Source: Macrocystis pyrifera (Eukaryota > Sar > Phaeophyceae > Laminariales > Laminariaceae). From it: 64,000 nucleotides of DNA. The stretch spans positions 11,512,774 to 11,576,773 of the forward strand of contig JASSKH010000015.1 in NCBI GenBank assembly GCA_031763025.1, in the 5' to 3' direction. The notes under the pieces were generated by a model. The model saw only the letters and a program-made list of their open reading frames with translations, was not told the origin of the DNA and made no database searches. Positions 10,461 through 39,383 of the stretch are shown one piece after another (the stretch's first letter is position 1; every line of letters starts with the position of its first letter). The translations under genes were made by a program, and so were the position numbers.

Positions 10461-11200
10461 ATTCAACGTAGCTCTTCTACTATTAATACTACTGCTGCTG
10501 TGCTGCATACAACAGAGTAAACACACAAACACGATAGATAAGCTAGGAGTGCGAAAACTATGCATAACCCATCAGACTGCCTCGCCGACCAGGGCATCCA
10601 AAATAATCGGGAATTGACTGCGTAGCTGGACGAGGAGACTACGCATGATTTGAGTGGGGCAGGTCAGTGCGCACAATCTGCTGGAGTTGCGGGATGTTGG
10701 TGAGTCTTCCATAATGGTTGGGCTTCTCTCCGCAAACGTTCTGCCTAAACTTATGGAAAAACCTCCAACCCGCGCACCAGTGTGTGTGTACAGCATACAA
10801 CAGCACGGTGGCAACTCTACACAATACTGCAGGGCATCGAAGGACACCTTCCAAGCAGCCTACGAACTCCACGACCTTCTACACGCGTTACACATACCGA
10901 TTTCTTCGTCACCATGAACAAGGCGGTTAACCCCTCTGCCGCTTACATTGAACTCATGCAGTCCACTGTGGGTTTCTATTGTATGTTTCACAACCGTTAG
11001 AGATAAACATCGGGAATCCGTTTACAAACTACATGCTACGCATGTGCCCTATGTTAGACTATTAATATTAATAGTATATGTCAATACCTCAGCAGTGCGG
11101 ATACTGCTGTGGACTGCTGTTGGTGCAACAATGCGAAGCCGCTCGAAGACGTGATCACCACGCTGGGTGAGCCTTTAGTTTACTGCTGTGGTATATTTTT
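10461..11200. other. No recognisable gene; short open frames only
   Basis: Three overlapping plus-strand frames of 70-90 codons (10654-11000) exist. None shows a recognisable domain, and each stops within 300 bp. A frame-mixed remnant of a coding gene cannot be excluded. Confidence 0.4.
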
Positions 11201-11204
11201 TTAG

Positions 11205-12312: not shown

Positions 12313-12507
12313 TGTTGATAAGTCCCAGGCGAAGAAAGATGATGTTTCAGGTTTTAGTATTATTCTCCCGGCAGAGTAGATACAGATGGAAGTGGCCCTG
12401 GTGGGGATCACGTACACCCACAGAAGTAACCACCAAATAATCTCATAATAAGCCAATATACCGAATAGTCATGAAACCGTCAAATACTGAACAAGCACAT
12501 TCGAACA
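12313..12507 (-). repeat. LTR of gag-only element 1 (3' LTR)
   Basis: The 195-bp direct repeat is nearly identical to 16611-16805, with termini TGTT...AACA. In element orientation this is the downstream LTR. Confidence 0.85.
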
Positions 12508-13364
12508 CACTCCCTGCTTTTTCAGCAAAACGGCAATGACAATTCAAGATAACAGAACAAAACTCATCTCCATGATCGAAAACCAACTAAAATATTTCAA
12601 GAGGAAACCTGTACCTTACAAGCAAAAACCTCTTCCTCCTGTATTAAACTATTGCAGATCTCCTTTGCAACAGCTCAATGCCGTAAAAACAAAACAATCA
12701 TAGAGATAGCTAAATGATAGAACTCGCGAGGAACCCCATTCCCCGAGACACACGTCTCCCTGTGCCCCCTACTCCCGCCACAAATTATCAGATCGTAGCT
12801 AACGCGAGATACCAAATATCTTTCCCCATAGAGTTTGCCCGGCGCTTACTATTCCCGAAACAATATCCGTTTTGTGTCAGAACCAAAAGAAAAACACTCC
12901 CTGTTTCTGGTTCAGTTCACTAGCTATCCTTGTTCCCTGAAATACTTCACCTTCCCACTCGTGAACCGAGATTTTCATCACCCTAAATCATGAAGAATCA
13001 TATCCACAATTTTTCATCTTCCAACTCGCGAACAAGATTTCAATCACCCATCGAGTTCGGAAATACAATATTGGTGGTAGAACAACCCATCAAGAACCCT
13101 CCCTTGTTCTGCAACCAATAGACCTCAGTACAAAGACAAACGCCTGCCAAACTCAATGAAATCAGTATCCACCAATACCGCTGCATCTGCAATACACCTC
13201 TCAAGGTGCACCACGTACTCTTAATTCGCCAATCCGTCAACTAATAAATATCCGTCCCACCAGTCACCTTCTGGTCCTGTCTATACCACAAAGACTGTTT
13301 GATTTGAACACGAAAATATATTTATTTCAAAACTCCAGGCAAAACAAAAGGCTACGTATACCGT

Positions 13365-13787
13365 CGAGTAGACGATAGTATACCTCCGTACCATTTGCGA
13401 CTTTCCCGGGATGAAAAAATATATTCCGTAACATTCAGAGATCCCTCATCAGTGGTAAACAATACATATCCCACATATCATCCACCACGTAGCCGACGGG
13501 AAGAACGATGACTACCACATAATTTTATCCCTAGCACGTCGCAAATGGTTTTTATCATATACGACTTAATAACCGGAACGAATCCACACCCAGTCGAAAA
13601 TGACACATCTCCATTTGACGAACCTACAGTAGACGATACTATACCTTCTTCGTACAATTCACGACTTTCCCGGGACACAAAATATAACGCACACCATTCA
13701 GATCTCCGTAACCAGTAATAAACGATACATACCCTATATATCATCCAGCACTTACCCGGAAAGAACGATAACTACCATATAATTTAG
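13365..13787. repeat. Tandem duplication inside gag-only element 1
   Basis: Two units of about 260 bp share TTTGCGACTTTCCCGGGA-like and CGGAACGAATCCA blocks. They start near 13365 and 13628, and the second continues at 14983-15070 beyond the hAT-like insertion. They provide an empty-site comparison for that insertion (ATAATTTTATCCCTAGCACG against the filled site). Confidence 0.65.
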
Positions 13788-14974
13788 CAAGGGTGTGTTC
13801 GGTACGGTACGGGTACGCTCGGTACCGGTATGGACATGGTACCGAACGTACCGAAATTCTCGGTAAGGGTATGGACATGGTACCGAACGTACCGAAATTC
13901 TCGGTACCGGTATGGGCATCGTACCGAATATACCGAGCTTCTCGGTATCGGTACGGTGTATCATACCGATACCGCCGGTAAGGGTACGGACATCGTGCCG
14001 AACGTACCGAAGTTTTCGGTAGGGTATAGAACTCCAGACCGAACGTACCGAAATTCTCGGTACGATTTAGAACTCCATACCGAACGTACCGAAATTCTCG
14101 GTACGGTATAGACCTCCATACCGGTACCGTACCGCAGATACCAGCGGTATTTGTCAAACCGAGCGTCGCTCCACAGCAGTACCATGGTATTGCCCATCAA
14201 GAATGTGTGTGTCTGCGACAGTTTTTTTTTTTTTTTTTTTTTGTCATCACATTCATTTCCAGAGTTCGATGGGCGCCTTACCACACCGGGTATTATTTGT
14301 CTTGCCTGAACGTCCACGACCTCTGCCTCGACAACGTCTGCCTCCGGAGGAGCTGGCGCCGGCGCTGGCGATGATGAGCTTTGGTCGCCAGCGGCGGGGT
14401 CATCATTGTCGTTGTTGCTGGGGGGGGGTGTTGTGGTGCTCATGAGGGCCGCTGTACCGATGAGGCAGGGTACGCTGCTGTGCTGCTGTGCTGCTGCGTG
14501 CTATGTGTGTGGCGGTACTGTACCGGCACCGGGTTGTCCCGAGCCTAACTTCCCGATTAGCCCGGGATCGGTACTCTCGGTAGGGTATAAGCTCGGTATC
14601 GGTACGTTGTGTCATACCGATACCGCCGGTACGATATGGACATGGTACCGAACGTACCGAGGTTCTCGGTAAGGGTATGGACATGGTACCGAACGTACCG
14701 AAATTCTCGGTACCGGTATGGGCATCGTACCGAACATACCGAGCTTCTCGGTATCGGTACGGTGTATCATACCGATACCGCCGGTAAGGGTACGGACATC
14801 GTGCCGAACGTACCGAAATGTTCGGTAGGGTATAGAACTCCAGACCGAACGTACCGAAATTGTCGGTACGGTATAGAACTCCAGACCGAACGTACCGAAT
14901 CCTCTCGGTACAGGTATACCGGCGGTATTTTACCGCCGGTAGGCCTCGGTAGTACCGTACCGAACACACCCTTG
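13788..14974. mobile_element. hAT-like non-autonomous element with GTACCGAA arrays
   Basis: This 1187-bp element has perfect terminal inverted repeats starting CAAGGGTGTGTTCGGTACGG. It is flanked by the 8-bp duplication TAATTTAG (13780-13787, 14975-14982). TIR sequence and duplication length fit the hAT superfamily. Both subterminal regions consist of tandem ACCGAACGTACCGAAATTC-type units in both orientations. The central 450 bp (14126-14575) is unrelated. It has an acidic and Pro/Ser-rich minus-strand frame (to 14443) with no transposase motif, possibly a leftover transposase 5' end or captured sequence. Confidence 0.85.
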
Positions 14975-15070
14975 TAATTTAGTATTCCCTAACACGTCGT
15001 AAACGGTATGTATCGACTTTCCTTTATCCGGAACGAATCCAAATCCGGTCGAAAAAGACATATCTCCATT

Positions 15071-16138
15071 TGTACGATCAAAAACGTATTTCGACCGACA
15101 GGTGTATCCAATCGCAAGAGAAAACTACTCCTCCGAATACCCACCAGAAGTACTAGACATAACCTCTCGCCCGCTAAGTAGCCGAATTACTGAAAAGCTC
15201 CAGCTGGCGAGATACCTGTCTGTCCACTTCACGACCTTCCCGCAACATAAATACACACTTGCCCACATACTCCCTCCAAACCTTTGAAATATGCGATATT
15301 AATGTATTGGTATTTGTCCAGTTGCTCTTCTGGCCTGCCGACATCGAACACGGAGCGCATCGAAGCGCAGTGGATGTCGTATTCGGCAGTAACATTTCTA
15401 ACCAAAACACGAAAATACGACTTTTCAACTACCAGGTGGGGGACGGGGGGGTACTCATCACGTATATCTTCCAGAAAAAGAAGTCCAAACAATACTTCCG
15501 TACGTACGTATCATCTAGATTTATCGCACATTTCATACGTACTCGTACGTACTACGAATCAATTCACGAAATTTCTACCCTCGTCGTGAAAAGAAACAAA
15601 CTTCACAAGGTAATAGTGGATCGAAGACCTACCATTACGAGTGCAGACGCTATCCCCTCGCCCCGCGTGTTGCTGGACCCATAAAAGGATCCAGCGGACG
15701 ATCCAACCACGCCTGCCCCATCCACGACCTCCCGCTGCTGCTGCTGCTGCTGCTGACCTTCCGCGGCTGCTGCTGCTGCTGTTCCTGACCTCCCGCTGCC
15801 GCTGCTCCTGCCGCTGCTGCTGTCGTCGTGTGCACGCGACTGCTGTGTCACGCGACTTGTTGCCGATGCAGACGTGCCCTCCTTCGTTACTAGTACTGCT
15901 GCAGCAGCACCCGATTCCCCCCACGTCCGCTCCCTCGACCACTTACACACCGTAGTCGAGTGCGCGTATCACGTACGCGGCTTTCCCGACCATGCCACAT
16001 GGGTGGCCGGGTGCACACGGCCTGGCTCACCTTGCGACTTCACGCGAAAATGTGCAGATATGTCTCCCATCCCCACAGCTCCCAGCCCCACCACAATCTC
16101 CCTGGGTGAGGTGCACACGTAAAGTTTCGCACGACTTG
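15071..16138. other. Untranslated interior of gag-only element 1
   Basis: About 1 kb separates the internal duplications and the gag frame. It contains a GCTG/CTG-rich stretch (15735-15835). Overlapping low-complexity frames occur on both strands. No domain is recognisable. Confidence 0.5.
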
Positions 16139-16576
16139 TTATCCTCCGTACGACTTGTTATCCTCCGTGCTACTCCCCACACGGAGGCGCCTACGGTTTT
16201 GTTGCTCCCACCGCAGGGCTTTTTCTTCTCCATTTAGCACGCCGTCGTATCTCCGGCCCACTCCAAGAGCACCAACACAGCTTCCGCTCCCTTTTCCACC
16301 GAGGTGGCCATCTTCCGCAGAAACGCGTTTACCCTCCCGGCTCCCGTTACCAACGTCGGAGTGTTCCGACGCTGGCGTTGAAGCATCTCTCCCTGCTCCA
16401 ACTGCAGTAGATAGCTGTTGCTGTCTACCGGACCCCATCTGTGCCATCATCTCGAGGATCTCGGCGTGATTCGCCTTTCGACGCTCCTCTGCGTCGGCGG
16501 CCGCCCGCTGCAGCCCCTCGAGGGCGAGGCCCTGCTCTAATACCATACCCCGAAGATCTTCTACTTCGTCACCCAT
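16139..16576 (-). CDS. gag: Short gag-like protein of gag-only element 1
   Basis: This 145-residue frame starts at an ATG 34 bp inside the upstream LTR. The first ~50 residues (MGDEVEDLRGMVLEQGLAL, then an Ala/Glu-rich segment with QRAAADAEERRK) form a predicted coiled coil. This closely resembles the N-terminus of the gag-like protein at 38649-39131 (MGDELDDLRAVVSEQGLA). The remainder is Gly/Ser-rich and basic. The CCHC knuckle seen in the second element is not recognisable here, so this copy may be decayed or a different subfamily. Structural or packaging role is inferred from position and similarity. Confidence 0.6.
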   Translation of the reverse strand: MGDEVEDLRGMVLEQGLALEGLQRAAADAEERRKANHAEILEMMAQMGSGRQQQLSTAVGAGRDASTPASEHSDVGNGSREGKRVSAEDGHLGGKGSGSCVGALGVGRRYDGVLNGEEKALRWEQQNRRRLRVGSSTEDNKSYGG

Positions 16577-16610
16577 GAGCCTAGGTTGCCAACGTTGAAA
16601 AACTCTAGAG

Positions 16611-16805
16611 TGTTGATAAGTCCCAGGCGAAGAAATATGATGTTTCAGGTTTTAGTATTATTCTCCCGGCAGAGTAGATACAGATGGAAGTGGCCCTGGT
16701 GGGGATCACGTACACCCACAGAAGTAACCACCAAATAATCTCATAATAAGCCAATATACCGAATAGTCATGAAACCGTCAAATACTGAACAAGCACATTC
16801 GAACA
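16611..16805 (-). repeat. LTR of gag-only element 1 (5' LTR)
   Basis: This LTR matches 12313-12507. In minus orientation it is followed at once by CTCTAGAG, a motif shared in form (CWCTAGWG) by all four Copia-type and gag-only elements of this window. Confidence 0.85.
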
Positions 16806-19832: not shown

Positions 19833-20333
19833 TGTGATACGGAGCCCGCTCTAGGGTAGTGGTAAGGGTAGTGGCAAGGGACGCAGGTTGTTCTGGCAGC
19901 TGGAAAGCAGTGCTTCGCTTCTTCTGATTTAGATCTTCTTGTTGATGGCGAGAGCTGAGGAGGTGCTCTGGTAGAGAAGTGAGAGGTAGGGGGGTGGGAC
20001 TCGACGCCCAGATATACTCGTCCCACCCCACGCCACAAGCTCTCCTAAATTCATCTTATCTGATGTACGCCTACAGAACTTTCCTATGGCTACCGGTCGT
20101 TCTTCTGTTAATATAAGAACTTCTCACTTGGTAGTCCTATCTGCGTCAAGGAACATTACTCTCGTCTAACGGGCTATCCGCCCTAGGGAACATTCCTAAG
20201 AGAACGTTACTCTCGACTAACGGAATATCCGCTGGGTTAATCCATTCTTTGGATTATTCTCGTATTCGTGAGACTACAAGACTGCAACGTATTATCTATA
20301 TCTATAGCCCATGAACACTCTACTCATATCACA
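19833..20333 (-). repeat. Gypsy LTR (3' LTR in element orientation)
   Basis: This 501-bp copy is identical to 31473-31973. The first bases outside the inner end (minus: AGGGTGGGCTAA) are a weak purine tract that may prime plus-strand synthesis. Confidence 0.93.
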
Positions 20334-21899: not shown

Positions 21900-22990
21900 C
21901 TAAACTAAGGCTAACCAGGGGGGGGGAGTGGAAACGGTGGGGGTTCCGCGGGACACATCAGAGTTCCGCAGCACCCCACGTGCTAGGCTCCCATTCCCAT
22001 GGCGTTGAAGACACCACGATCCGTATACGGCGTTCCGTGCTGTAGTGTAGCGGGCGGGTTGGAGGTCGATCTTGATCGGGCCGGGGTCGTCCAGGAACCG
22101 GACGATGTAGGAGCTTCCCGGTGAAGACTCCGGCGGAGTTCCCGAAGAGGCGTCAGGGGGTGAGCCGTGGGCGACCTTGCCCAGCCACCAAAGGCCGTCG
22201 CGCGCCTTGTACCATATGTGTGCTCCGGAGGGTAAGATGGTGGTGCTGAAGTTGTGGAGCCAAAGGCTGCGGGAGACCAAGGCGTAGCCTGGAGCGAGGA
22301 AGATTTGTCCTTGAGATCGGGCCAGTTCGCGGTGAGCGGCGCCGATGCGCATCTGGCGGTAGAGGCGGTTCGTCTGGCGGTGCTGGGTTGGTGATCGTGA
22401 CCAGTAAAGTAGGATGTGGCGCCGGAAGTGTTGAAGGTCCAGCTCGCGTTCCCACGAGGGGCTGAGAAGTCCAGTCCAGTGAGTCTCGTACAGAACGGCG
22501 ATGACCCCGCCGCGGCCGCGTACGAGTTGATGGCCAGTGATCTGCTCGACCTCGAGGCGTTCCGGTGGAGGAGTGACGTTGTCGACGGTGACGTGGTAAG
22601 GGGGGGACTTGGCGGCAGAAGCTATGAGCACGTATGTAGTAAGGTCCGCGGGCAGATGCTTGGGGATGTCGCTGGTGTCGTCGGGGTTCCGGCAAGGTTT
22701 GCATCGTTGGACGGAGACGCGTGGTTTGGAGTCCCGTCCCGGGAGGTCGGATGGAAGGTCGAGGAAAAATAGCTTGTCGTGAAGGGGGCGATTGTCGGGG
22801 GTGTTTGAGGCGGGCGTCGGCCCTACGGCGAGGACCTTGAAGGGGCCATTCCAGTTCAGGGAAAGCTTCGTCTTGAGGACGGTTGCGTCGGTGCCCTCTT
22901 TGACGCCTTGGCGGATGGTTGAGGCGGAGTTGTAGACCCAAACCCAGCCGCCTACGGTGAAGGGGGGGGGATGCTAGGAGGGCGGCCATG
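21900..22990 (-). CDS. pol: Integrase C-terminus, chromodomain and Tudor-like segment
   Basis: The frame is shifted relative to the integrase core by a poly-C tract near 22965. It opens with FTVGGWVWVYNSAS and KTKLSLNWNGPFKVL, the GPF/Y-type integrase tail. A chromodomain follows at about 22398-22556 (VEQITGHQL, then HWTGLLSPSWERELDLQHF and ILLYW), with aromatic residues at plausible cage positions. Chromodomains guide chromoviruses to marked chromatin. Further on, about 22017-22226 reads IWYKARDGLWWLGKV, later YIVRFLDDPGPIKIDL, resembling a small SH3/Tudor-type barrel. That second assignment is tentative. Confidence 0.75.
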
Positions 22991-23028: not shown

Positions 23029-24138
23029 TCAGTGTAGTTCGCGGACGAGGGAATAGGCGCGTCGTTGTCGGTCGGTGGCGAGGTTGATGTAAACCAGGTG
23101 ATCGCGGTCCAGGCTTTGGTGACCGCCGATATTGTCGGGTTCGAAGACTGAGAGCGGGAGGCGAGGAAGGCGGCCCATGTGGATTTCGTTAGGTGCAAGC
23201 CCTGTGGCGGCGTTCACGGAATTGTTGTAGGCCGACGACACGTGTGGGAGCAGCACGTCCCAGTCGGTCTGCTGTTCGTTGCCAACCATAGAGAGCATTT
23301 GGGCCAGTACGTGGTTGACGCGCTCGATGCCGCCGTTGGTGCAGGGGTGGTAGGAGCTGGTGTTGACCTTGTGGATGCCAAGGCGTTCGTAGACGATGTT
23401 CGCAAGCTTGGAGGTGAAGTGTAGTCCGTTGTCGGAGAGAAGTGTAACCGGGCACCCCCAGAGAGGGATGTACTCGTTCAGGAAGATGTCGGCAGTGCCG
23501 GCGGCCGTGAATTGCGCCGCTGAAACGGCATACATATCGGCGCGGCGGCTGAAGCGGTCTGTGAAGAGGAGGATGTGGACGTTCCCGCGCGGCGTGAGCG
23601 GCAGGGGCCCGAAGTAGTCGACGCTGACGGTGATGCCAGGCCCGTTGGGCAAAGGAAGAGAAAGGATGGGCCAACGAATGGTGTGCCGGGAGGTCTTCCG
23701 CGCCTGGCATTGAAGGCAACGGCGGATCCACCAGCGGACGGAAGCGTCCATGCCAATCCACCAAAAGAAATGTGCCAACATGCGAACCGTTCGGGTGACT
23801 CCCAGGTGTAGGGAGGTGGTGGCGTGGCATGTGTTCAGCACCCAGGGGCGCATTAACATTGGCACGTAGACGCGTGGGGCAGAGGGGGCGGGTGGTGGTA
23901 GGCTGTTCCCGGATGAGGTTGTGGGTGGTCGTTGGACCAGGAGGGCGGTGTCGTCGTCGGTACGGTGTAGCTTGCTTTTGGAGGCAAGAGTGAGGACGTC
24001 CGAAAGTTGTGGGCGCCGGGCCGGGGGGATGAAGTCCAGGAGGTCGTGCGGCGTGGGGCTGGGGGAGTCCAACGACAGGAAGCGGATGGTGGCGCAGCAC
24101 AGGGGCTCCGCGCGTTTTTCTCGCGCCCAGTTTTTTTT
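23029..24138 (-). CDS. pol: Gypsy integrase core
   Basis: The frame opens just after the TAA at 24139, which sits beside a 10-nt A-run. A Pro-rich linker precedes an HHCC-type zinc region (CHATTSLHLG, later CLQCQARK). The catalytic core has D in TVSVDYFGPL, D in LLSDNGLHFTS and E in GGIERVN, with exactly 35 residues between the last two (DD35E). The frame ends at an in-frame TGA at 23029, after which the same frame continues as credible integrase sequence until the poly-C frameshift. The enzyme joins retroelement cDNA to host DNA. This copy is interrupted but keeps all catalytic residues. Confidence 0.9.
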   Translation of the reverse strand, partial: KKNWAREKRAEPLCCATIRFLSLDSPSPTPHDLLDFIPPARRPQLSDVLTLASKSKLHRTDDDTALLVQRPPTTSSGNSLPPPAPSAPRVYVPMLMRPWVLNTCHATTSLHLGVTRTVRMLAHFFWWIGMDASVRWWIRRCLQCQARKTSRHTIRWPILSLPLPNGPGITVSVDYFGPLPLTPRGNVHILLFTDRFSRRADMYAVSAAQFTAAGTADIFLNEYIPLWGCPVTLLSDNGLHFTSKLANIVYERLGIHKVNTSSYHPCTNGGIERVNHVLAQMLSMVGNEQQTDWDVLLPHVSSAYNNSVNAATGLAPNEIHMGRLPRLPLSVFEPDNIGGHQSLDRDHLVYINLATDRQRRAYSLVRELH

Positions 24139-24866
24139 TTAGGTGTAGTGCTCGACGCAGGCGAGGAGGTAGGGGTCGTCATCGGGTTCGACGACGGGCT
24201 CAAGATGGGGCACTACCGGTGGTGTTGGTGCCGGCGGAGAGGGCATTGTTGAGGGTGTCGTTCTTTGCGTAGTGGGCGCCAATGGCTTGGGTGGCGGTCG
24301 GCGTCCTAACCGGTAGTCGGCTGTAGGCCGAGGGAGTCCCGCGGCAGCGGCGACGCGATGGCGGGTCCGAGAAGATATCAGACCTGGAAGGGCTGGTGTC
24401 GTGGCGCCAATGGTGGGCGGCGGAGAGACGACGGACGGCATGGAAGCCGAGCCTGGAGGAGCTCCGGTGTTCACGGCGGCATTCTCGGTGCCGGCAAGCT
24501 GTCCGGTGGTGGAGTCGCGGGTCGCAATAGGCCTGAGGAAGGTGTGGGTTGCGGGGGAAAGGGTGGGGTGCTCCGTACGTGGTCCGAGTAGGCGAAAGTC
24601 GCGGAAGTCGTCGTCGGTGAAGGGGAGCGGCTGGACGGTTGGGATGGGTCCGGAAGGGGGGGACACGAGCCCACCCAAGCCGATACCCGGGGTGGAAGGG
24701 TCGTTCGGCGCGAAGCCGCAGGGGCGGATGAGGTAGATGCCGACGGTGTCGGGGCCAGTGCGGCGGTTGCGTCCGGTGCGGTCGGCGTCGGTGGCTGGTT
24801 GGGGAAACAAGGAGAGAAAGTCGGCGTTGCCGTTGGCCGTGCCCTTCCGGTACTCCAGCGTGTAGG
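24139..24866 (-). pseudogene. pol: RNase H C-terminal tail and Pro-rich linker
   Basis: The first residues read YTLEYRKGTANGNADFLSLF, the end of a Gypsy RNase H domain (NADFLS is a hallmark). Next comes a linker with GIYLIRPCGF and a long Pro/Thr-rich stretch to the TAA at 24139. The RNase H catalytic residues are absent because the upstream part is deleted. The frame differs by one from the RT stub upstream, as expected across a deletion junction. Confidence 0.8.
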
Positions 24867-25252
24867 TGTACGCTGAAAGGAGCTCGAGCCGTTGGGCTGT
24901 CCGGGGGTACGGTGATCTTGAACGGCATGAGCGGGCACGAGCCGAACTCAGTCTTGGTGGTGGAGAAGACGTCCTGGAATTCGCAGAGGACGTTTCCCAG
25001 GTTGTTGATCACCGACGGGGTTCATCTAGAACCGTGCAGGTCGAAGTTGACGTCGCGTAGGTGTAACGGCAGACGTTCCCAGAGGTCGAGGAAGCTTTCC
25101 CGTTGGTCGGCGTTGAGGCGTGCAAGGAGTTGTGGGTACGGGGCTTTTGGTGCGGTAGGAGGGTCATCTGTCGATAGGCTCTGGTCGGCCACGGGAATGT
25201 TGTCGTGGAGGGCATGTACATCCGGAATTTGAGGGGGGTGGGGAGGGGCCAA
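24867..25252 (-). pseudogene. pol: RT N-terminal stub ending at a deletion junction
   Basis: The frame begins with the pre-RT linker (LNADQRESFLDLWERLPLHL), then meets a TGA at 25022. It continues with NVLCEFQDVFSTTKTEFGSC and LMPFKITVPPDSPTARAP, the conserved start of a Gypsy RT. Within the next 20 bp (about 24867-24884) the sequence jumps to the RNase H tail. The palm and the YxDD motif are missing, as is most of RNase H. A normal element would have roughly 1.2 kb more here (family knowledge). Confidence 0.85.
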
Positions 25253-26202
25253 GGAAGGGTGTCCAAGGGTGGAAAGTGGTACCTGTACCAGTGGGGAGTA
25301 GGAGGTTCCGAGGAGGTCGCCCGGCTCGAGATCGGTAGATCCAGATAGGGGGACCGTTTGGCATCCGTCGGAACGAAAATGGCCGTGTCGGAGAGTGGGT
25401 TCTCGCGGGGGAGCATGTTCACCATGTAGTTCCCGGTAAATGCTGGAGCGCCTGACTGGCGCGCCAGGTTGACCTTAACGAGCTTGGGGGTGGAGGAAAG
25501 CGATATAGCTTTGTTGCCGGCGAATCGGAGGTGGTAGACGTCGTCAGTGGAACGGTCGTCGGGAATGAATGCTGAGGCTCCGTTGGGGTCATGGTGGTTC
25601 AAGGAGAGCTCACCGCGGGTTCGCCGGGTAGGTTGGTGGGGGGGGGTGGGCTGTTGCTGGAGCGTGGTATACGAGCGTTGCTCGAAGCGCATCCAGCTGT
25701 CTCGTTTCAGAAGGATGGGGTGCTGCATGGTTCCTGCAGGAACTACGCAGGCCCATACTGCCAGGGCAGCAGTGGGGGACTGGAGGCGCATAAACTGGAT
25801 GCTTAAGCGGATGGAGACGGAGGTGGAGAGGGGGTCTGAAGTGCCGAAACCTCCCCATGAACGGGGGGAACTGTGCCGTTCGCACGTATCGGTGGCTGCC
25901 TGGGAAGCCTTCAGTTGTTCCACCGCGGTTGCGGTGATAAACGACTGGGGCGAGCCGGTATCGAGCAGTGCCACGAGTTCGCGGCGCGTAGTGGCGGTGG
26001 GGCCGCTGTGCACGAGTACTTCGTCGTGAACGACGCGTCGTCGACGGTAATGATGCCGCTTGTAAGGCATGGTCCGTGTTCCGGTATCGGCGGGCGGCGG
26101 GGGTAGGGAGGTGGCTGTGAGTTGCGGTGTTGATGGTGGACACTTGGGCAAAGTGGCTGCTGGGGTAGGCGTCGGGGGTGGACGGCGGTAGGAGTGGCCC
26201 AA
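25253..26202 (-). CDS. pol: Gypsy aspartic protease
   Basis: A basic Pro-rich leader precedes ELVALLDTGSPQSFIT, the D-T-G active site and flap-side context of a retropepsin, at about residues 75-90. The protease matures Gag-Pol. The open frame continues to 25009, but from about 25300 the coding signal passes to the frame of the RT stub. It overlaps the 3' half of the NADAR frame in a different register, so translation would need a frameshift or processing event between NADAR and protease. No in-frame ATG with good context was identified. Confidence 0.8.
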
Positions 26203-27223
26203 GTGGAGAGGTAGGCGGTTGCCATGGAGGGGTCGGGCTTGTTTCGTGGATGCCGTCGGCTGTGGGGGAGACCCGGGTGGAGTCGGTGGGGGTGGGTGTT
26301 GGCTCCGGGTCGTGAAGATGGGGAGGAAATGGAGGCTGGGTGGAGCAATTGGCGCCGAGGCTTTCTCGAACGTCCATCAGTATCCTGCCCAGCAAATTCC
26401 GACCACGCCAACGCGTCGGGTCACAGGCGTCCGGATGGTCGGCCTTGAAGCCTATGCCCCAGATGAGGTCGTGTGGGCTGGCCTCGGCGATGTGCTTGTC
26501 GCCGGTTGCCATTAGCTCCTCCCGTAGCTCCGGGTGTTGGCGGAACTTGGAGAAGTTAATGTAGAGGACGATGGTGTAGCGGTGTCGCTCCCAGACCATT
26601 TCGTCGAAGTCGGAAACGGTTCGCCCAAGTGCTTTTTGGCGGGCCGGGTCGCGGGTCGCTTTGATGCGGCGCTCAGTTGTGATGTTCCCGAAGAGCGCGG
26701 CCTTCTGCGCCATCATCGTCTGCTCAGCGCAGTTGTATGTGACGCCATCGTGTTCGATGTCGCACAGGTACCACTGCGAAAAGACCGAAGAGGAGTCCCA
26801 GAAGAAGTGGAAAGATGAGGCGGCCTCTGCGGTGACGTGTGCAGATGATGGCGTCTTTTGTGTTGGGGGTGGGGGGCGACGATAATCTTTCCTATCGCCG
26901 CCTGGCGTCGACGGAGGTAGAGTCAGCAACGATCGAGCGGTGCTGGCCGGAACCCTCGTGTTCGCGGGGGAATTGCTCGGCAAAGCCGAGGTACCGGGGC
27001 GGTCCTCGCCGGGGCTTATAAGCCGGGCGGGACGACCCACAAGCGCCCTATCGTCCAACTTTTGGAGAACAGGGGCATACTCGCTAGGGGATGCCACACC
27101 TGGGGTCCGTGTCCACGCTTTGCGCGAAGCAGGCGAGGAGGACGGGTCAGGGGGCTCAGGGCAGACCCTGGTCGACGTTGGTCGCGAGTCTTCCGTATTT
27201 AAAACGGGACTGTCCCTCGAGGC
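25610..27223 (-). CDS. NADAR (YbiA-like) domain encoded within a Gypsy element
   Basis: The frame is open from the TGA at 27224 to 25610. The credible part is the domain at 26357-26812. It starts FHFFWDSSSVFSQW, then YNCAEQTMMAQKAALFG, DEMVWERHR, KFRQHPELREELMATGD, EASPHDLIWGIG and WRGRNLLGRILMDVRESL. This matches the NADAR family end to end at about 150 residues. Residues corresponding to the Glu, Trp and Asp considered functionally important in YbiA are all present. NADAR enzymes hydrolyse ADP-ribose from guanine (known from DarT1/NADAR systems). A Pro/Ser-rich leader with no ATG lies upstream, so the domain is probably made as part of a Gag-Pol polyprotein. After about 26200 the frame is probably a shadow of protease. 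Confidence 0.9.
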   Translation of the reverse strand, partial: ASRDSPVLNTEDSRPTSTRVCPEPPDPSSSPASRKAWTRTPGVASPSEYAPVLQKLDDRALVGRPARLISPGEDRPGTSALPSNSPANTRVPASTARSLLTLPPSTPGGDRKDYRRPPPPTQKTPSSAHVTAEAASSFHFFWDSSSVFSQWYLCDIEHDGVTYNCAEQTMMAQKAALFGNITTERRIKATRDPARQKALGRTVSDFDEMVWERHRYTIVLYINFSKFRQHPELREELMATGDKHIAEASPHDLIWGIGFKADHPDACDPTRWRGRNLLGRILMDVRESLGANCSTQPPFPPHLHDPEPTPTPTDSTRVSPTADGIHETSPTPPWQPPTSPLGPLLPPSTPDAYPSSHFAQVSTINTATHSHLPTPAARRYRNTDHALQAASLPSTTRRSRRSTRAQRPHRHYAPRTRGTARYRLAPVVYHRNRGGTTEGFPGSHRYVRTAQFPPFMGRFRHFRPPLHLRLHPLKHPVYAPPVPHCCPGSMGLRSSCRNHAAPHPSETRQLDALRATLVYHAPATAHPPPPTYPANPR

Positions 27224-27243: not shown

Positions 27244-28231
27244 AACACCGTGGCAGCTGGAGGAAGCCCGTCGTTCGCGGGTTCAACGCTGTCACAAGCG
27301 CGCATGCTGGAACATGCGCGTATGGAGCGGCCCAGTATGAGGCAGGCTCAGGGGGCGGTGGCCCGGTAGACGAAACACTAGTTTCGTGTGAACCGGAACC
27401 GCTGGTAGCCGTAATCGTCGAGACGTTTCCCAGGGTAGCAATGTCTGGGGTCTCGGCAACAGTCGGCAAGCAGCGTTGCTCACCGCCAGAAGACGCCGAG
27501 TGGAGCATCCCGGTGGGGCTCGGCGTCTTGGCCTCCTCCCGCCCACACCTCAAGGCAATCACTTGGGCAAGATGATCAGTGCTTGAACAAGTGGCTGTGA
27601 AATGGGCTGGGGTAGGGGGGGGGGGGGCATTGGAGGGCAGGGGTCGGGGAGGCGTGATGCACGTGATTTACTCGTGCGTCCTGGGAGCCTCGGGTGCTCG
27701 CAGTAGATGCTGTTGGTGGAGATGCGGCAGTTGCTCCACCATCGGCTTGTCGGTTGGTGCGGAAGGTTCCCGGCTGCCGTTGGTTCGGGTGGGTACCCGA
27801 GTTGGTGCTGCCCATCCGCATGTTCGCGGGGGCGGCAGGTGCGGAAGTATTGGTCGCAGGGGTATGTCAACGCGGAAGACGAGGGGGCAGGCTCGATGCG
27901 TTGTTGTTGGAACTGTTGCCCTGGCGACTGTCGGTTGCCGTTGTCGTATGACCGGCCGTTGTTGTGGCGCCAGTTGTCGGAGCGCCCGTTGTTGCCGCGG
28001 TAGTTGCGGGAGTGGTTCTGGTTGGAGCGGTTGCTGTTGTAGTTTCCGCTGCGGTTGTTGTTGTTGTTGCCTCGACGGTTGTTGTTGTCGTAGCGGTTGG
28101 AGTTTCGCTCCAGGTTGTGCTCGTAGTGTCCACGGCGATATAAGAGCATCCTCTGCTGCCATTGGCGCTAGGCGTGTCCAACTACCGGGCTGAGGATGCC
28201 GAACGTGTTGCGAAGCGCAGGGGGCAGGTCT
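27244..28231 (-). pseudogene. gag: Nucleocapsid-like basic Asn/Arg region and linker
   Basis: Just after the gag frame ends, shifting by one base completes a zinc knuckle: CPNCNGT is followed by H and KTC in the next register, giving C-x2-C-x4-H-x4-C. Further on, a frame open at 28149-27559 is a repetitive basic Asn/Arg/Gly-rich segment (RYDNNNRRGNNNNN), typical of RNA-binding nucleocapsid tails. Another frame is open at 27562-27242. Several frame changes and TGA codons (27242, 27224) separate this from the NADAR frame. Confidence 0.6.
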
Positions 28232-30347
28232 TCATACTATGTCCGTGCCATTGCAGTTGGGGCAGTGGTCACCGTGAGCTCGTAGGGCTTGGGCACGGGC
28301 CGAGCTCGTCAGGAGGGGTGTCAGGAGCGGTGGGGTCTGAGGGTCGAATGTGGTCGTGACCATGTATACCTCCTCGTAGTGTCGCAGCGGCCAGTCCGCC
28401 TCGTCCTCGCAGAACGGGTCGCGCCCCTGTTCGGCCACGTTCATGACGAACGGGTTGGAGGAAGACCCCCTTGTGTTGGTACCTGGGCCACGCGAAGTTT
28501 GCTGCCGCGCTGGGGTCGGTGGAGAGGAGGAGTACGTGACGAATCCGCCGGAGGAAGTCGCGTGGAAGCGGTGCCCGTTGATTGCCGGCGTCTTGTTGGT
28601 CGCCAGCACTTCGAAAGCTGCCCACATGTCGGCAACCGAGGAGAAGGGCTGCGGGGTGGTCATGAGGCGCCCCGGATAAAGCGTGGGCATGAGGGACGGG
28701 TATTGGCTGCCCGTAGTGCCGCGTACAATCTCGATGACCATGGCATCGCTCGGCTTGAAGACCCGTTCCGTGCCTTGTGCGACGGACACACGTTCTTTAA
28801 AGGCACGGACGAAGGTCGCGAAGTCCGTCAGATTTGGGACGCCGAAGGTGTGGAGCTGCTCGAAGGCGCGGCCCTGGTCGCCGTCGTCGAAGTGGTTCGT
28901 GAGTAGACGTAGGAGCTTCTTGAATGCCGACGGTCCGGTGTTGTCGATGGTGAGCTCCTGGCGCACCTGGACGAAGAAATCGTCGATGAGGCGAGGCAGT
29001 GGCGATGTCATGACCTGGGGGGACGAGAGCGCCTTGCGGAAACACCTTTGAAGTGGAGCATCCCATCCCACTACCCACGGAGGTGTTTCAAACGACTGCT
29101 TCTCCGAGTCGTCGCACACTATCAGGATCTCGCCGAGGACGAGTTTCACGCTGGCGAGGAGCATGCCCAGGTAGACGGCGGGTTCCACATTGTCCGGGCA
29201 TGGAAACCGCACGAGCGCAGTGAACTTGCGCATATCGACCCCGGCGTAGAGGCGCCGGACACTACGACGTTCCGCGTCCGTCATGGGCTCCGTAGTGGCT
29301 TCTGTCCTCAGGCTAAGTGCTCGTGCGGGGGGGGGCGCTGTCGTCGTCGTGGGAGTTGTCGAGGTGGAGTGGGACGGTATCGCCGGCGGCGTCTCCGTCG
29401 TGGGGCGGGTGGTTGGGGGTGTCGGGAGAGTGGGTCGAGGCTCGGTTGGGTTCCACACGTAGCCGCGGCCGGCGTTGGAGTGGAAATACCGTAGCTCGAG
29501 TAAAAGGGTGTGGGCGGCCCCGATGAACTCGGACGAGGCACCCTCGGTGGCGGCGCGGGCCAGAACGAGGGTGATCGACGGGTCGCAGTCGGGTGTGAAC
29601 AGGCGCCAGACGCGATGTGCCGCTATCGAGACATCCGAGGCTATCGGGTCGCGTGTACTCTGCATCCAGCGGAGCTTGGCGTCCAGGAAAACCCAGTCAT
29701 TGGACTCGAAACCGAACGTCTGCGGTTGCCTGTGCCCAGTGGGCATGGGGGCTGGCGAGGGTTGGGTCGGAAATGGTGCCTGGGACATTGTGGTCCCAGT
29801 TTGGTTTTGGGGAGGCTGGTGGGTGGTGGTCCTAGACACCGCGGCGGACGTAAAGGGTGGGTCCGGGTGCGGAGCGAGCGGCTGCGATTGCGTTGTGGTG
29901 GTCGCGGTCACAGCTGTAGTCTCGTAGGTGGGGTCGAAAGGGTTCGAAGAGGGAGTGGGGGGGGGATGGCGGTAGCACGAGTAGGAGGTCAGCGCTCTCT
30001 TTCGCGAGAAGGAGGAGCTGCTCGTGGTGGGCTTTGAGGGCCGCACGGCGCTCACGGAGGGCCGTGGGATCGCCTTGGTAACGCCCCGGATGGAGAGCAA
30101 GGGTGGAGGCTTCCTGTGCGGAGACCTCCGGTTTTATGGTAGGCACGGCACTGGTCGTACCTGCTCCCAGTGGAGAGGATCCCGGTGTGGTGGGGTGTAG
30201 CGTGAGGTCGCTCAGAATGGTTTCGAAGCCGGGGGTGTTGTCGTCCGTAGCGCGAGAGGCCCTTGCGGCATACCTCGCCTCGCGGGGGTTGGTGGCGTCG
30301 GGGGAGTGGGCGCCGGGCATGTTGGTGGAGGAAGCTTTCTCGGCCAT
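28232..30347 (-). pseudogene. gag: Gypsy gag, interrupted by a frameshift
   Basis: The start is MAEKASSTNMPGAH at 30347. This frame holds an acidic N-terminus and a helical segment (ALRERRAALKAHHEQLLLLA) and closes at 29832. The signal passes to a second frame near the G9 run at 29957-29965 and continues to 28232. There it includes a large helical capsid-like region (FKKLLRLLTNHFDDGDQGRAF, then FATFVRAFKERV). It ends at the first half of a zinc knuckle. Gag would form the particle that packages element RNA. No close family is recognised by eye; identity comes from position and composition. Confidence 0.75.
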
Positions 30348-31472: not shown

Positions 31473-31973
31473 TGTGATACGGAGCCCGCTCTAGGGTAGT
31501 GGTAAGGGTAGTGGCAAGGGACGCAGGTTGTTCTGGCAGCTGGAAAGCAGTGCTTCGCTTCTTCTGATTTAGATCTTCTTGTTGATGGCGAGAGCTGAGG
31601 AGGTGCTCTGGTAGAGAAGTGAGAGGTAGGGGGGTGGGACTCGACGCCCAGATATACTCGTCCCACCCCACGCCACAAGCTCTCCTAAATTCATCTTATC
31701 TGATGTACGCCTACAGAACTTTCCTATGGCTACCGGTCGTTCTTCTGTTAATATAAGAACTTCTCACTTGGTAGTCCTATCTGCGTCAAGGAACATTACT
31801 CTCGTCTAACGGGCTATCCGCCCTAGGGAACATTCCTAAGAGAACGTTACTCTCGACTAACGGAATATCCGCTGGGTTAATCCATTCTTTGGATTATTCT
31901 CGTATTCGTGAGACTACAAGACTGCAACGTATTATCTATATCTATAGCCCATGAACACTCTACTCATATCACA
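31473..31973 (-). repeat. Gypsy LTR (5' LTR in element orientation)
   Basis: This 501-bp copy is identical to 19833-20333, indicating very recent insertion, gene conversion or an assembly duplicate. Confidence 0.93.
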
Positions 31974-34556
31974 AATGCCCATTGTCCATTATATTTTCCT
32001 AAATATTGTCCTCGGGTGTGTATGTTTTCTGCTTCTCCGTTTCTTCCTTATTTCCATTCTTTTCAAGTTAGTTATTTCTTCCTTTTTTCTTTCTTTTTCC
32101 TTGTTGTGTGAGTTGGAGGGTACACAGGTGGCCACTGGAGTACCTTGAGAGCGTACTCTCGTGGACCTGAAGCAAACACCTTGAGCCACAAATCTCAAGG
32201 TCGATCATTGCCTAACGTGAACATTCACAACGTCCCTGGATTGTCGAATGTACGCGTCACAATGTACTCAGGTTCGGAAACGTACCAGGTCAAGGTGCTG
32301 TGTTTTTTGTTACACAGCTGACAGCACAACAAAAATCGAAATCGAATCGAGAAACAAACCACAAAATGAAAAACGACGAAAACAAAGCAAAATCATGAAA
32401 TCCGGGCAAAAAAAACGAAACACGAAAAAATACCAAAATTGTTGGAGAAAACTGATATGTACACGAAAAAAAGTACAATGAAAGTGGAGAAGACAACAAC
32501 ATAGACCAAGTGCAGTGCATAGGCCCACAGCAACACATGTTACAACAACTTACGACAAGTCTTGTTGTATGGTTGACAACGTGATGTTTTCCCCTGTATA
32601 TATACATTTTGTTGTTTTATCTTTCGAATTGGGTTGTTATTCTTTTTCTCTGAGACGTGGGAGGGAGTTTTCCATTGTTCGGCATGCAACCGACGTCACT
32701 GACGGTTTTCCATGTTCATACCGACACCCTGTTACTCCGTGTAACAGCCTCTATTACTCCATGTAATAGTCCTTTCTAATACTCCATGTAATAGTCTTCT
32801 TTATTACTCCATGTAGTAGTCCTCTCTATTACTCCATGTAGTAGTCCTATTACTCCCTCCCTTGGGCCCCCTCGACTGGGGCCTATTACTTTGAGGTCTC
32901 GGACGACCGAGTACCCCAAATGGTCATTCGACCATTCCAACTCCTGACAGTATTCAGATTAACAGAATGTTGTTACTTCGTAGCAACTCCTTTCCTCCAC
33001 CTTCGAAAGAAAAGGGGTGGGTGGGCGGGAGAAACTACGGAAATTCTGGTAGATTGACCTTCAAATTTTTCAGGAAGGTTTTGCTCTTTATCACGTAGTT
33101 CACTGGTCAGCTGAGGTCGCGCGCTTCCCGTTTTGAGATTGCTGTGCTTGTCGAACTGTGTGAGAATGATTTCGTGTGCGAGCTCTCTTCTTGTTCACCA
33201 GGTATCTAAATATTGGACTCATCAATTACATCGTATTTTTTTTTTCGACGTCCGCTTAAACTGCTCAAGCTTAGTTTCGTTTCGGCTAGTCCCTTACCTC
33301 CTCAGGGATACACATAAAGTATGTGCGTTGGTTTTCGCTTATCAATCATAGAATATTTCAACCTCTAAATTTACAATTCGCCCGTTCACAACAAAACACG
33401 GATTGTTTCTCGATCTGTTCCAGAGTCTCCTCACAAGCCTTCCCTTTCTGGTCTCCCTCGCTGTTTTACACTGCACAAAACCGACATTATATGCGGCACA
33501 TGAGCTACACGCAAAAATCACCCTACACGTACGTTAAAATTAAGCAAAACGTGAAACCTCGGTACATAGGACGTTCGGGTTTGGTACTAATTTTCATAGT
33601 TCTAAAAATAATTCCGGGTCTGTTCTGCAACAAACGAAACGTTGCCAAAAATAACACTACAAAATATTTTGATAAAAAGATGCGATCGACGCAAAACTCA
33701 CGTCTTGCACGATGCAAACATCATTATTGCACATACATACCTGGTAGACGGCAAGTCGCAGTTTAACTACCCATTGCCAACTTCATGCCCCTCTTCCCCG
33801 TCCCCCTTCCTTCTTCTCAATCATGCCAACGATTCAGTACCCCTCCGCAAGCCCCAAATTTCCTTCGTTCAATATTCCATGTTATATTTCGTCAATATAT
33901 CATACATACAACAACATAGTATCATACATCCAAACAACAAGCAGTATACAGTTAATAAAAAAATGTGTCATGGGGTGTTGGAGAAAAAAAAACTCAAACA
34001 ATCGATGCAAGAACATCCACAAACCTAACGACGCCGTCACATGTAACTAAAAGTTCACGACAGGACGTCTCACAATCGAGGTGCACTTGTTACGTTACGC
34101 AAGCGTTGCGGTACACGTTTTTCCTGTCGCCGCAACGTGCTAAGGTTGTGGTTTCGCCACAACGTCCCGCAAAACGTATACCCAAATGGCCACCTGTGTA
34201 GACAACAAAACGTCGAAAAGGGCCAGCGAAACTTCGTTCCAAACGTGGGTGAAGTCTGAGATGCTATGTTCAGAGGCTCGGGACGAACGCGAAGTTACCC
34301 CAAGCAGTACTTGATGTGCATATATATATATGTAGTTTTTATATATAAATGCACAAATAAACCGATGCTGTGGAATAGAAAATTATCAGATTTTATGTAC
34401 TGCTGTGTACTGAAATTATTAATACGTCGTAGGTGTTTTTCGAAGCACGAGTCGAAACCGTGTCCTCGACATCGTAAAAAATGTTCATTTGTTACTTCGC
34501 ATTCCCACAGATAGTAATGTACTGCCAGGGTAGACGAGTTGTATACATCACTATTA
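31974..34556. other. No recognisable gene; hairpin minisatellite
   Basis: The region is AT-rich with low-complexity purine tracts. At 32731-32848, about four imperfect ~31-bp units carry CTATTACTCCATGTAATAG, each able to fold as a small hairpin. An open frame at 33323-33766 has no recognisable domain and unlikely composition. Confidence 0.5.
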
Positions 34557-34662
34557 TTACGGGGCACCATAGTAAATAGGACCAAATATCGTCAGTAAAA
34601 ATAGGTAAATATATAGATTTTTCTTCAGTACCGTAGGTCCTATTAACTATGGTCCCCCGTAA
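34557..34662. mobile_element. Stowaway-like MITE copy 1
   Basis: This 106-bp element has inverted ends TTACGGGGCACCATAGTAAA and, inverted, TTACGGGGGACCATAGTTAA. TA precedes it but the right TA is lost. It belongs to the same family as 35467, 42963, 43972 and 44089. Confidence 0.8.
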
Positions 34663-34722
34663 AACTAACCGGTACCGGTATTGCGGAACTGCCGGAGTTG
34701 AAAAATCACCAACTACGAAGTA

Positions 34723-35184
34723 CTACATACCTGTAGTATTTATGGTGTATCCTGTCCAGGGGGGAGCAAAACACAACCCGTCTTGACCCAACTCGCTCAC
34801 TAAAACTTGCTGCAACTGTTTTCTTTTTGGGCTGCCCCTTCTGCGCTGCAGCATTTCAAAGCCTCCTTTACAAAAGCTGAGGCGGACTGGCTGGATTGTC
34901 GCCGCTGGACACAAGCACAAGAAAACATAATAATTAAAAACTGGACACGGGGCGCACTCGCTAGCTAGCGGGCTTGACAACCCCGGAGAAGACATCTTAC
35001 GCGCTTGTTGCTGCTCCAACTTTCGAACGCCCCTCTTCACAGACGTTGTCGTGGGGAGCTGGCTGTGGGCACAATCACTTCGGCTGCAGAGACGACGAAG
35101 CAGGAGAGAGTGGGTGTACGAGGCTGGAGGACTTGGAAGCCTCAAAGAACACGAAAAACACACGGAGTCGCCTTGCCTTACCAC
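34723..35184 (-). other. Open frame of unknown nature (153 codons)
   Basis: A Ser/Leu/Cys-rich frame includes KLEQQQARKMSSPGLSSPLA and ECAPCPVFNYYVFLCL. It has no identifiable domain, and the composition is unlike a typical structured protein. It could be part of a dispersed repeat or an unrecognised gene. The neighbouring 35185-35460 has only overlapping frames. Confidence 0.3.
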
Positions 35185-35466
35185 TTACTTCCTTTGCTCT
35201 GCTCTACCTCTTGAAGGTCTCTGTTTATTGAGGCTGAGGGGGGCTGCACATAGGCACCCCGAAAGTGGAAACATACTGGGTACAGGAGAGGCGGGGGCGT
35301 CCAGGAAGTCCAAGAAAACACGAAGGGCGCGGGCGCGGAAAGGGGCCTTCCTTTAGCTTCGGCTCGAATCGTGGTTCTTGCATGAGGTCTTCTTCAGGAC
35401 GATGTGTCGGTGAGAGCAACAACCCCGACTGGTTATCGACGAATGTAGTGTTTACCGTACTCGATA

Positions 35467-35571
35467 TTACGGTGGTCCATAGTTAATAGGACCTATGGTA
35501 TACACAAAAACCTGTATATTTAACTATTTTTTCTCGCAAAATTTGGTCCTATTTACTATGGTCCCCCGTAA
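35467..35571. mobile_element. Stowaway-like MITE copy 2
   Basis: This 105-bp element is flanked by TA on both sides (35465-35466, 35572-35573). Its ends are TTACGGTGGTCCATAGTTAA and, inverted, TTACGGGGGACCATAGTAAA. Confidence 0.85.
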
Positions 35572-35573
35572 TA

Positions 35574-36084
35574 GCTGGGATTGCTACCGCACGACAACAC
35601 TACTGGGAATGCTTTCTTCGAATTCGACGGGCGACTGAAGTTGTGCCAAGTACAACTAACTACAGCAGTAGTACTACATACAGCCGCATCGTGTGTGTGT
35701 TCTTCACATCATTGTTTTTCGTTTTCTACCCGTCGACATCCAGCATACGTACCCTGTGTCCGTGCTGATTCCTCAGCCTAGAGAGATACAAGCTCTTCTT
35801 ACAGACTGCTGTGGTCCCAAACTACTACGGAAGGTGGTTGTTACTAGTAATTGGTGGTAATGAGGCGCGACCTCAGCAATACCTGCAGTAGTCATATCTG
35901 CGATGCATCATGCACAACATTTGTGCTCAACCAACACGAACGAACTTCTACTACTGCTGCTGCTGTACCTACTACCTATACGCCGTCGTTGGTGGATCTC
36001 ATAACCGTAAATATTCTTGGCATCATATATATCCTGCTCTTGAAAAACACAGACAGCACAGCAGTAGTACGGACACACCTGTTA
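35574..36084. other. No recognisable gene
   Basis: Short overlapping frames only, with scattered CTACTACTG motifs related to the tandem repeat that starts further right. Confidence 0.4.
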
Positions 36085-38648: not shown

Positions 38649-39131
38649 CTAAAACGCCGTCGTCTCCACCTCATCATCTCCGGGATCCCCCACAATCGCA
38701 AACACGGCCTCCGCCGGCGATCCATCCATGTCCGCCGGCGATGCGCACTTGCTGCTCTCGTGTCCTCTCCCACCACACCTTTCGCAGAGCTTTGCAGTGC
38801 AACTAGTTGCTGTAGTGGCCCGCAGCCTTGCACCGGAAACACCCCCCCTTCGCTTTCCCGGCTCCACCGTGCCATCGTCGGAGCGATCCAACGATGGCGA
38901 CACAGCATCCCTCCCTGCTGTATCTACGGCAGGTAGCCCCTGCTCCCTGCCGGACTTCCGCTGTGCCTTACTCTCTCGACTCGTTCTCAATAGAGTCGCC
39001 ATCATCTCAAGCAGCTCAGTATGATATGATTTTTGACGCTCCTCCGCGTCTGCGGCTGCTTGTTGTAGAACTTGGGGAGCAAGGCCCTGCTCCGAGACTA
39101 CGGCTCTAAGATCATCAAGTTCATCCCCCAT
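38649..39131 (-). CDS. gag: Gag-like protein with CCHC zinc knuckle
   Basis: This 160-residue frame starts at the ATG at 39131, 36 bp inside the 5' LTR. The N-terminal ~60 residues (MGDELDDLRAVVSEQGLA, then QQAAADAEERQKSYHTELL) are a likely coiled coil for multimerisation. A basic middle leads to LCERCGGRGHESSKC, a perfect C-x2-C-x4-H-x4-C nucleocapsid knuckle for RNA binding, and an acidic tail. It is related to the frame at 16139-16576, and its layout resembles the coiled-coil Gag starts of the two Copia elements. No protease or polymerase follows. Confidence 0.8.
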   Translation of the reverse strand: MGDELDDLRAVVSEQGLAPQVLQQAAADAEERQKSYHTELLEMMATLLRTSRESKAQRKSGREQGLPAVDTAGRDAVSPSLDRSDDGTVEPGKRRGGVSGARLRATTATSCTAKLCERCGGRGHESSKCASPADMDGSPAEAVFAIVGDPGDDEVETTAF

Positions 39132-39166
39132 GATGAGGCTGCGTCGGTACCAACGACTCTCTAGAG

Positions 39167-39383
39167 TGTTCGTCAGCCCCAAGCACAGGTAGTCAAGACA
39201 CCCAGACAATCGCTGAGTTGATGATTTAGGTCGTTTATTATTATCTCCCAGCAGTGGTAGGGACAGCAGAAGTGACATTGTGCGTCATCCCATAACACCC
39301 AGATGTCAAGAATCACATAATGCACAATATGCCAATATCCCGAACCGGCACGTAACTGTCAAGCTAAAGAGGCACAACGAACA
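39167..39383 (-). repeat. LTR of gag-only element 2 (5' LTR)
   Basis: This is the partner of 36497-36713. It is followed outside by the duplicated GGGTC and then the continuing CAG-rich tandem repeat. Confidence 0.88.

Follow-up and report, generated by a model that had tools for sequence, protein, structure and literature searches.

A YbiA-type NADAR domain ahead of the protease in Ty3/Gypsy retrotransposons of the giant kelp Macrocystis pyrifera

In this study we analysed a 64,000-nucleotide stretch of the genome of the giant kelp, Macrocystis pyrifera (contig JASSKH010000015.1, positions 11,512,774 to 11,576,773; hereafter the window, numbered from its first letter). It holds a Ty3/Gypsy long terminal repeat (LTR) retrotransposon that almost certainly carries, ahead of the protease in its Pol region, a NADAR domain of the YbiA type. 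This architecture is already known, and M. pyrifera is the second genome in which it is found: the Gypsy-12_Ec32 lineage in Ectocarpus sp. 7 bears the same kind of domain in the same place, a domain described as highly conserved there, with matches outside Ectocarpus that are almost exclusively bacterial (PMC12477816, Genome Biology 2025; for this and the other papers cited by PMC number, we draw on the parts of the text available). An earlier note on this DNA, made by a model from the letters alone, knew of no described element of this kind, a statement now overtaken by that paper; among the literature matches listed we found no other report of a NADAR-bearing Gypsy element. What is new here is the loss of reverse transcriptase (RT) and RNase H through a junction that is shared across an amplified subfamily, which nevertheless retains NADAR.

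The NADAR domain and its active site

On the minus strand, positions 26357-26812 translate without a stop into 152 residues and, as the earlier note had read, the family match runs along the whole segment. The Pfam profile PF08719 (NADAR) scores 170.5 bits against a cut-off of 35.1 and is covered from position 1 to 162 of 163, the phage family phrog_1017 scores 165.1 bits, and among curated NCBI models the top match, at 152 bits (cut-off 73.7), is to TIGR02464 (riboflavin biosynthesis intermediates N-glycosidase). When the bases of the segment were shuffled, its frame stayed open in 113 of 20000 trials. Structure prediction, which that note had suggested alongside the profile search, agreed: an AlphaFold2 model made with an alignment of 34 bacterial and archaeal relatives has a mean predicted local distance difference test score (pLDDT) of 97.9, and a Foldseek search of the PDB returned, at E<=0.001, solely the NADAR of the oomycete Phytophthora nicotianae (8bau; TMq 0.86, 32% identity in the Foldseek alignment) and YbiA of Escherichia coli (2b3w; TMq 0.80, 28%), with the other 28 of 30 rows at E>=2.7. 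With the profile matched over its full length, a score above the curated cut-off and the YbiA fold, the domain belongs to the NADAR superfamily (PF08719). In direct comparison with the window NADAR, the score is 71 bits for 8bau and 34 bits for YbiA. These two proteins share its fold, and 8bau the mapped active-site residues, but both are free-standing, whereas the kelp domain is embedded in the Pol of an element. Its G+C content by codon position is 0.58, 0.42 and 0.78, with a third-position excess that is also present in Gag (0.76) and integrase (0.76) but absent from the spacer (0.61).

Active-site residues were mapped onto 8bau, which was solved with ADP-ribose, through a pairwise alignment with the window NADAR. 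In the P. nicotianae enzyme, E43, K50 and E125 or their equivalents have roles in hydrolysis (PMC11543638), and all three are kept, as E30, K37 and E110. The same paper places K75, R79, Y84, D86, W89, R93, D130 and W133 around the ligand; here K60, R64, W74, R78, D115 and W118 are kept, while Y84 and D86 are replaced by F69 and E71. Across the 34 bacterial and archaeal relatives E30, K37, K60, R64, W74, E110, D115 and W118 are invariant, and F69 (33 relatives), R78 (21) and E71 (12) are each the commonest residue at their column, although invariance at E110, D115 and W118 is there by construction because the set was retrieved by the pattern EASPxDx[IV]WG. In nine phage and plasmid relatives retrieved without that pattern, E110, D115, W118, E30 and K37 are likewise invariant in all nine. 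Of the 41 columns with conservation of 90% or more among the 34, the window NADAR deviates at 3. The glutamate, tryptophan and aspartate proposed as functional by the earlier note all fall among the mapped residues; the catalytic E110 had gone unnamed. Judged by these residues, the domain is probably catalytically active.

The identity of residue 110 also bears on subtype. In the model, E110 ends strand 108-110, the last strand, where a glutamate marks the YbiA family, and DarT association is seemingly exclusive to the BC4488 family, which has an aspartate there (PMC11125620). The window domain is thus of the former type and outside the latter. The partnership with DarT1-like toxins put forward in the earlier note therefore cannot be transferred directly to a YbiA-type domain with E110. 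The DarT1-NADAR toxin-antitoxin systems (PMC11543638) share the superfamily and possibly the same guanine-ADP-ribose reaction with the kelp domain, but their NADARs have an aspartate in place of its glutamate. No DarT-like Pfam match was found in the element frames scanned.

The closest relatives found outside the element are bacterial, with up to 56% identity among the best 80 of at least 592 loci in non-eukaryotic collections; the 34 relatives used for alignment were picked by hand from these 80. Phage and plasmid relatives reach 42.8-50.0% identity among the matches listed (25 of 716 and 25 of 78 records), and single-protein queries of IMG/VR with NADAR, integrase or a flanking open reading frame returned no relatives. 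Horizontal transfer of the domain has been proposed (PMC12477816), and the bacterial relatives of the kelp domain agree with that proposal, short of proof.

The element and its defects

The element spans 12141 bp of the minus strand. Its LTRs, already described as identical in the earlier note, are so over 501 bp and have TG...CA ends with a 4-bp target duplication, AATG, outside. The order on the minus strand is Gag frame, split zinc knuckle, low-complexity spacer, NADAR, linker, protease motif, RT start, RNase H end, integrase, GPF motif, chromodomain-like segment and tail. The features, all on the minus strand, are as follows.

31473..31973, minus: 5' LTR, 501 bp, 100% identical to 19833-20333, TG...CA ends, AATG duplication
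28235..30133, minus: Gag frame, 633 open codons, ending in the first half of the zinc knuckle (open frame)
25610..27223, minus: 537-aa open frame containing NADAR in the window copy (copy L090 also has a 537-aa open frame)
26357..26812, minus: complete NADAR domain with a YbiA-type active site (PF08719, model, fold matches, active-site residues)
25936..25968, minus: aspartic protease motif LLDTGSPQSFI, in a frame other than that of NADAR in the window copy
24811..24943, minus: RT/RNase H deletion junction, about 1.17 kb missing between RT start and RNase H end (three undeleted copies have RVT_1 and RT_RNaseH at this place)
23029..24138, minus: integrase, H2C2 zinc domain and catalytic core, D-D(35)E (PF17921, E 7e-16; PF00665, E 1.4e-6, slightly under cut-off; D-E spacing 35)
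22401..22856, minus: GPF motif and chromodomain-like segment after the integrase (motifs; PF00385, E 0.071, below cut-off)
22062..22238 (within 21900-22400), minus: C-terminal tail with the pattern WYKARDGLWWLGK / RFLDDPG (RFLDDPGPIKI), from sequence alone
19833..20333, minus: 3' LTR, 501 bp, 100% identical to 31473-31973

The Gag frame has no Pfam match, and its zinc knuckle is split over two frames, CPNCNGTD (28241-28267) being followed by HSMKTCPLRF (28212-28241). With this knuckle upstream and the DTGS motif downstream, NADAR does lie between the nucleocapsid region and the protease, as previously proposed. Pfam matches in the protease region, to PF13650 (E 0.15) and PF12384 (E 0.18), are weak and below cut-off. 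The LTRs, target duplication, Gag knuckle, protease and a DDE integrase placed after RT (the order being NADAR, protease, RT, RNase H, integrase in undeleted relatives) identify a Ty3/Gypsy element. With its deletion junction within 24811-24943 and no Pfam RVT match in the frames scanned, the window copy lacks the RT and RNase H of an autonomous Gypsy. The label 'chromovirus', used in the earlier note, is doubtful because the chromodomain Gypsy lineages of Ectocarpus fall outside the chromoviruses (PMC12477816). The kelp element is likened to Gypsy-12_Ec32 by description, position and brown-algal host rather than by comparison of sequences, and the kelp chromodomain match is below cut-off. A Tudor-like or second chromatin-reader fold for the C-terminal tail is a guess from its sequence, and a single-sequence model of the tail was uninformative (pLDDT 31.9).

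The window copy is therefore broken in three ways that had not been mentioned before: the Gag knuckle is spread over two frames, the protease is out of frame with NADAR, and RT and RNase H are deleted. As its LTRs mark it as recent and yet its frames are broken, its template was probably defective already, and the enzymes that copied it would have come from other elements.

Elsewhere in the window, positions 1-7533 hold a nest of long inverted repeats, with arms of up to 533 nt that are 91-99% complementary (at least 18 pairs in 1-16500), which resembles a cluster of palindromic or foldback transposons; 1-223 and 218-334 recur there almost unchanged, in direct orientation, at 3664-3886 and 3880-3996. 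Local repeat arrays are present at 13741-14978 and 11199-12313, comprising a 268-nt family with copies at distances of 41 nt and 765 nt, and a tandem array of about 260 nt. Related Gag-like frames with MGDE(L/V)(D/E)DLR at 38649-39284 and 16139-16651, one with a weak zinc-knuckle match, are possibly Gag-only elements, and an inverted repeat at 34527-35601 (96-nt arms, 77% complementary, 883 nt apart) is perhaps a small DNA transposon. Copia-type frames occupy 45946-56740; they include RVT_2 (48315-48929), a zinc knuckle in 50962-51855 and integrase core matches in 54499-55086 and, just short of the cut-off, in 49618-50958. Rfam and tRNA scans of the 64-kb window gave no matches.

Genomic copies and the RT-less subfamily

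A search of the M. pyrifera genome with the NADAR query gave 1259 first-look candidates, of which 150 were scored; all had E<=1.2e-63 and 75-100% identity, 117 had no internal stop, and open frames ran to as many as 1644 codons. Twenty copies were retrieved with wide flanks, chosen for long open frames, divergence or identity (the wide sample). In all 20, DNA homologous to the protease region of the window lies 300-400 nt downstream of NADAR, although the query used for this was not in the protease frame. The possibility that a host gene fragment had been inserted only once, which the earlier note named as an explanation that would undo its claim, is ruled out by the 150 scored copies and this constant downstream neighbour.

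The frames of five of the wide copies were inspected. NADAR, the DTGS motif and RT/RNase H share one open frame in copies L163 and L165, although in L165 the part of the protease past the motif is out of register; in the RT-less copy L164 the first two are likewise joined in an open frame, and L171 yielded no DTGS motif. Pfam confirms RVT_1 and RT_RNaseH in the undeleted copies L163, L165 and L174. Furthermore, in the protease stretch 17 of the 19 wide copies compared differ from the window by a change that breaks the frame, and thus the switch of frame between NADAR and protease is most likely damage in the window copy rather than a programmed frameshift. From the side of the integrase, 40 of 111 scored copies have no scored NADAR within 9 kb upstream, bearing in mind that the scored NADARs are 150 of 1259 candidates, so that these 40 may or may not be sister elements lacking the domain. 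Six of these 40 were inspected: one has a frameshifted NADAR, one is truncated inside NADAR, one has RT-type spacing, and three gave no match in an 801-nt stretch.

The deletion itself was typed with a 200-nt probe across the junction in the window. Among the wide copies, 12 of 20 match across the probe, seven match in two pieces about 1.17 kb apart, and one (L176) has no match. A further 20 best-ranked copies comprised 16 that span the junction, one (L184) that is unclear, and three counted as undeleted, in which the match ends at the junction within the 601 nt fetched (two of the three also have the long integrase spacing). In total, leaving the window copy uncounted, 28 of 40 typed copies have the same junction, 10 are without the deletion and two are unclear; because the sample is ordered by how closely each NADAR resembles that of the window copy, 28 of 40 is not a genome-wide share. 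The spacing between integrase and NADAR is likewise bimodal, with 56 of 71 pairs from the 111 scored integrase copies at 2296-3132 nt and 15 at 3575-3875 nt, in a set that overlaps with the 40 typed copies. The simple reading is that a single deletion was followed by amplification to many sites, and the window copy very likely belongs to the resulting RT-less subfamily. Since that subfamily has been amplified, its RT was presumably supplied in trans by other elements, as its anatomy would suggest. The account of Gypsy-12_Ec32 in PMC12477816, as far as it is available, does not mention an RT-less subfamily.

Selection on the domain and its possible role

What could a NADAR domain do for a retrotransposon? 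We tentatively propose, at somewhat less than an even chance, that NADAR is packaged with Gag-Pol and acts as an N-glycosidase that takes ADP-ribose off guanine in the RNA or complementary DNA (cDNA) of the element; that guanine-ADP-ribose in nucleic acid is the main substrate seems to us nearly, but not quite, an even bet. The domain would be translated as part of Gag-Pol, carried with it into the particle, and there strip ADP-ribose from guanine in element RNA or in single-stranded cDNA as it is made; putative ADP-ribosylation by a host or a competing element would then no longer block reverse transcription. An antidote role of this sort, as the earlier note had suggested, is possible. NADARs, including a eukaryotic one, hydrolyse guanine-ADP-ribose (PMC11543638), and there are precedents for such a setting (PMC9503650): NADAR occurs with the polymerase inside polyproteins of eukaryotic RNA viruses, which differ from the kelp element in being without LTRs or integrase, and phages are inferred to package it. 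A Tx1 LINE of Crassostrea gigas is also a retrotransposon with NADAR, although a non-LTR one with the domain, called divergent, in ORF1 (PMC12477816; likened by description).

The pairwise ratio of non-synonymous to synonymous rates (dN/dS) was 0.56 for 54 distinct full-length NADARs (L147 was dropped from 55 as misaligned, and L142-L145, of other length, were excluded; L116 and L140 are the same genomic place in the copy list). It was 0.58 for the 49 open ones, and 1.29 and 0.79 in the two wrong frames. With L165, L172 and L173 excluded, it was 0.51 within RT-less and 0.50 within RT-bearing copies. In the wide sample, where each change was counted once per column, we found one stop change in NADAR against 8.3 expected (binomial p 0.012). 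The ratio of non-synonymous to synonymous changes (N/S) in that sample was 0.82 of neutral for the protease (19 of 20 copies covered), 0.77 for the integrase (12 of 20) and 1.48 for the adjacent spacer.

Several observations weigh against a packaged, nucleic acid-directed glycosidase. The N/S of NADAR itself in the wide sample is 0.85 of neutral (p 0.33), whereas constraint is much stronger on the GPF-chromodomain stretch (0.27, p 0.003; 7 of 20 copies covered), and three of the 20 copies have a frame-breaking indel within NADAR. The 30 nearest copies do give a NADAR N/S of 0.39 of neutral (p 0.002), but ranking by NADAR similarity biases this value down. Under the observed base-change spectrum, and with the same three copies excluded as above, changes common to at least two copies stand at 0.60 of neutral and private ones at 0.61; shared changes thus show no added constraint, which argues against strong selection acting on the lineages that transpose. 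Furthermore, the YbiA-type NADARs of E. coli and phage that have been tested are active on guanine-ADP-ribose in vitro, yet they differ in the protection they give to cells, and a part in clearing riboflavin intermediates has been ascribed to NADAR proteins as well (both PMC11125620). Overall, NADAR shows weak to moderate constraint, comparable to that on protease and integrase, amid much neutral decay. The expectation of a dN/dS below 1 under purifying selection, set out in the earlier note, is thus weakly borne out.

The weak constraint in the wide sample, with shared changes no more constrained than private, would also suit a passenger, captured once from bacteria and carried along by amplification, as would nearest non-element relatives that are bacterial and phage (about 43-56% identity among the matches listed). 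We give this explanation only a slim chance: the conserved domain in the same place in Ectocarpus elements (PMC12477816), the depletion of stop changes, and an N/S that resembles protease and integrase and lies below the spacer (NADAR against spacer, Fisher p 0.077) all argue otherwise.

Other functions can be envisaged for the domain. Unlikely, in our view, is that the target of NADAR is not nucleic acid but small molecules cleared on behalf of the element or the cell, either signals made of ADP-ribose or derived from NAD, or intermediates of the riboflavin pathway. The top curated model, TIGR02464, is named for the last of these, and phage NADARs are argued to target mainly small ADP-ribose derivatives (PMC9503650), but the same paper proposes macromolecular targets for the NADARs of RNA-virus polyproteins, the context most like that of the kelp element, and a particle-bound domain would be ill-placed to act on bulk metabolites. 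A part in processing element RNA, for example at RNA ends or caps, is rather improbable: PMC12477816 suggests a role in processing RNA intermediates, whereas no RNA-end activity is described for NADAR domains in the parts of the literature drawn on here. Finally, there is a small probability that the domain is a binding module for ADP-ribose or modified nucleic acid, its catalysis unused. It adjoins the nucleocapsid region, and the same pocket serves binding and catalysis, but the full catalytic set is retained, and a pure binder would have no need of both E30 and E110.

To return to removal of ADP-ribose from the element's own nucleic acid, the RT-less copies offer a further consideration. 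NADAR is open in 28 of 29 of them, in a list ranked by NADAR similarity. This fits a function in cis, although the youth of the copies and the ranking would also explain it; the protein might act on the particle that holds its own RNA, or the copies may be too young to have lost it. In its specific form, in which brown algae would use an ADP-ribosyltransferase as a defence and the domain of each copy would repair ADP-ribosylated guanine in whatever RNA or cDNA its own particle contains, so that RT-less copies can borrow RT but must supply their own NADAR, we consider the idea quite improbable.

In summary, this work extends NADAR-bearing Gypsy elements from Ectocarpus to the giant kelp, where they are present in large numbers. 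If NADAR is active in their particles, it would be plausible that retroelements in brown algae are attacked through ADP-ribosylation of nucleic acid.
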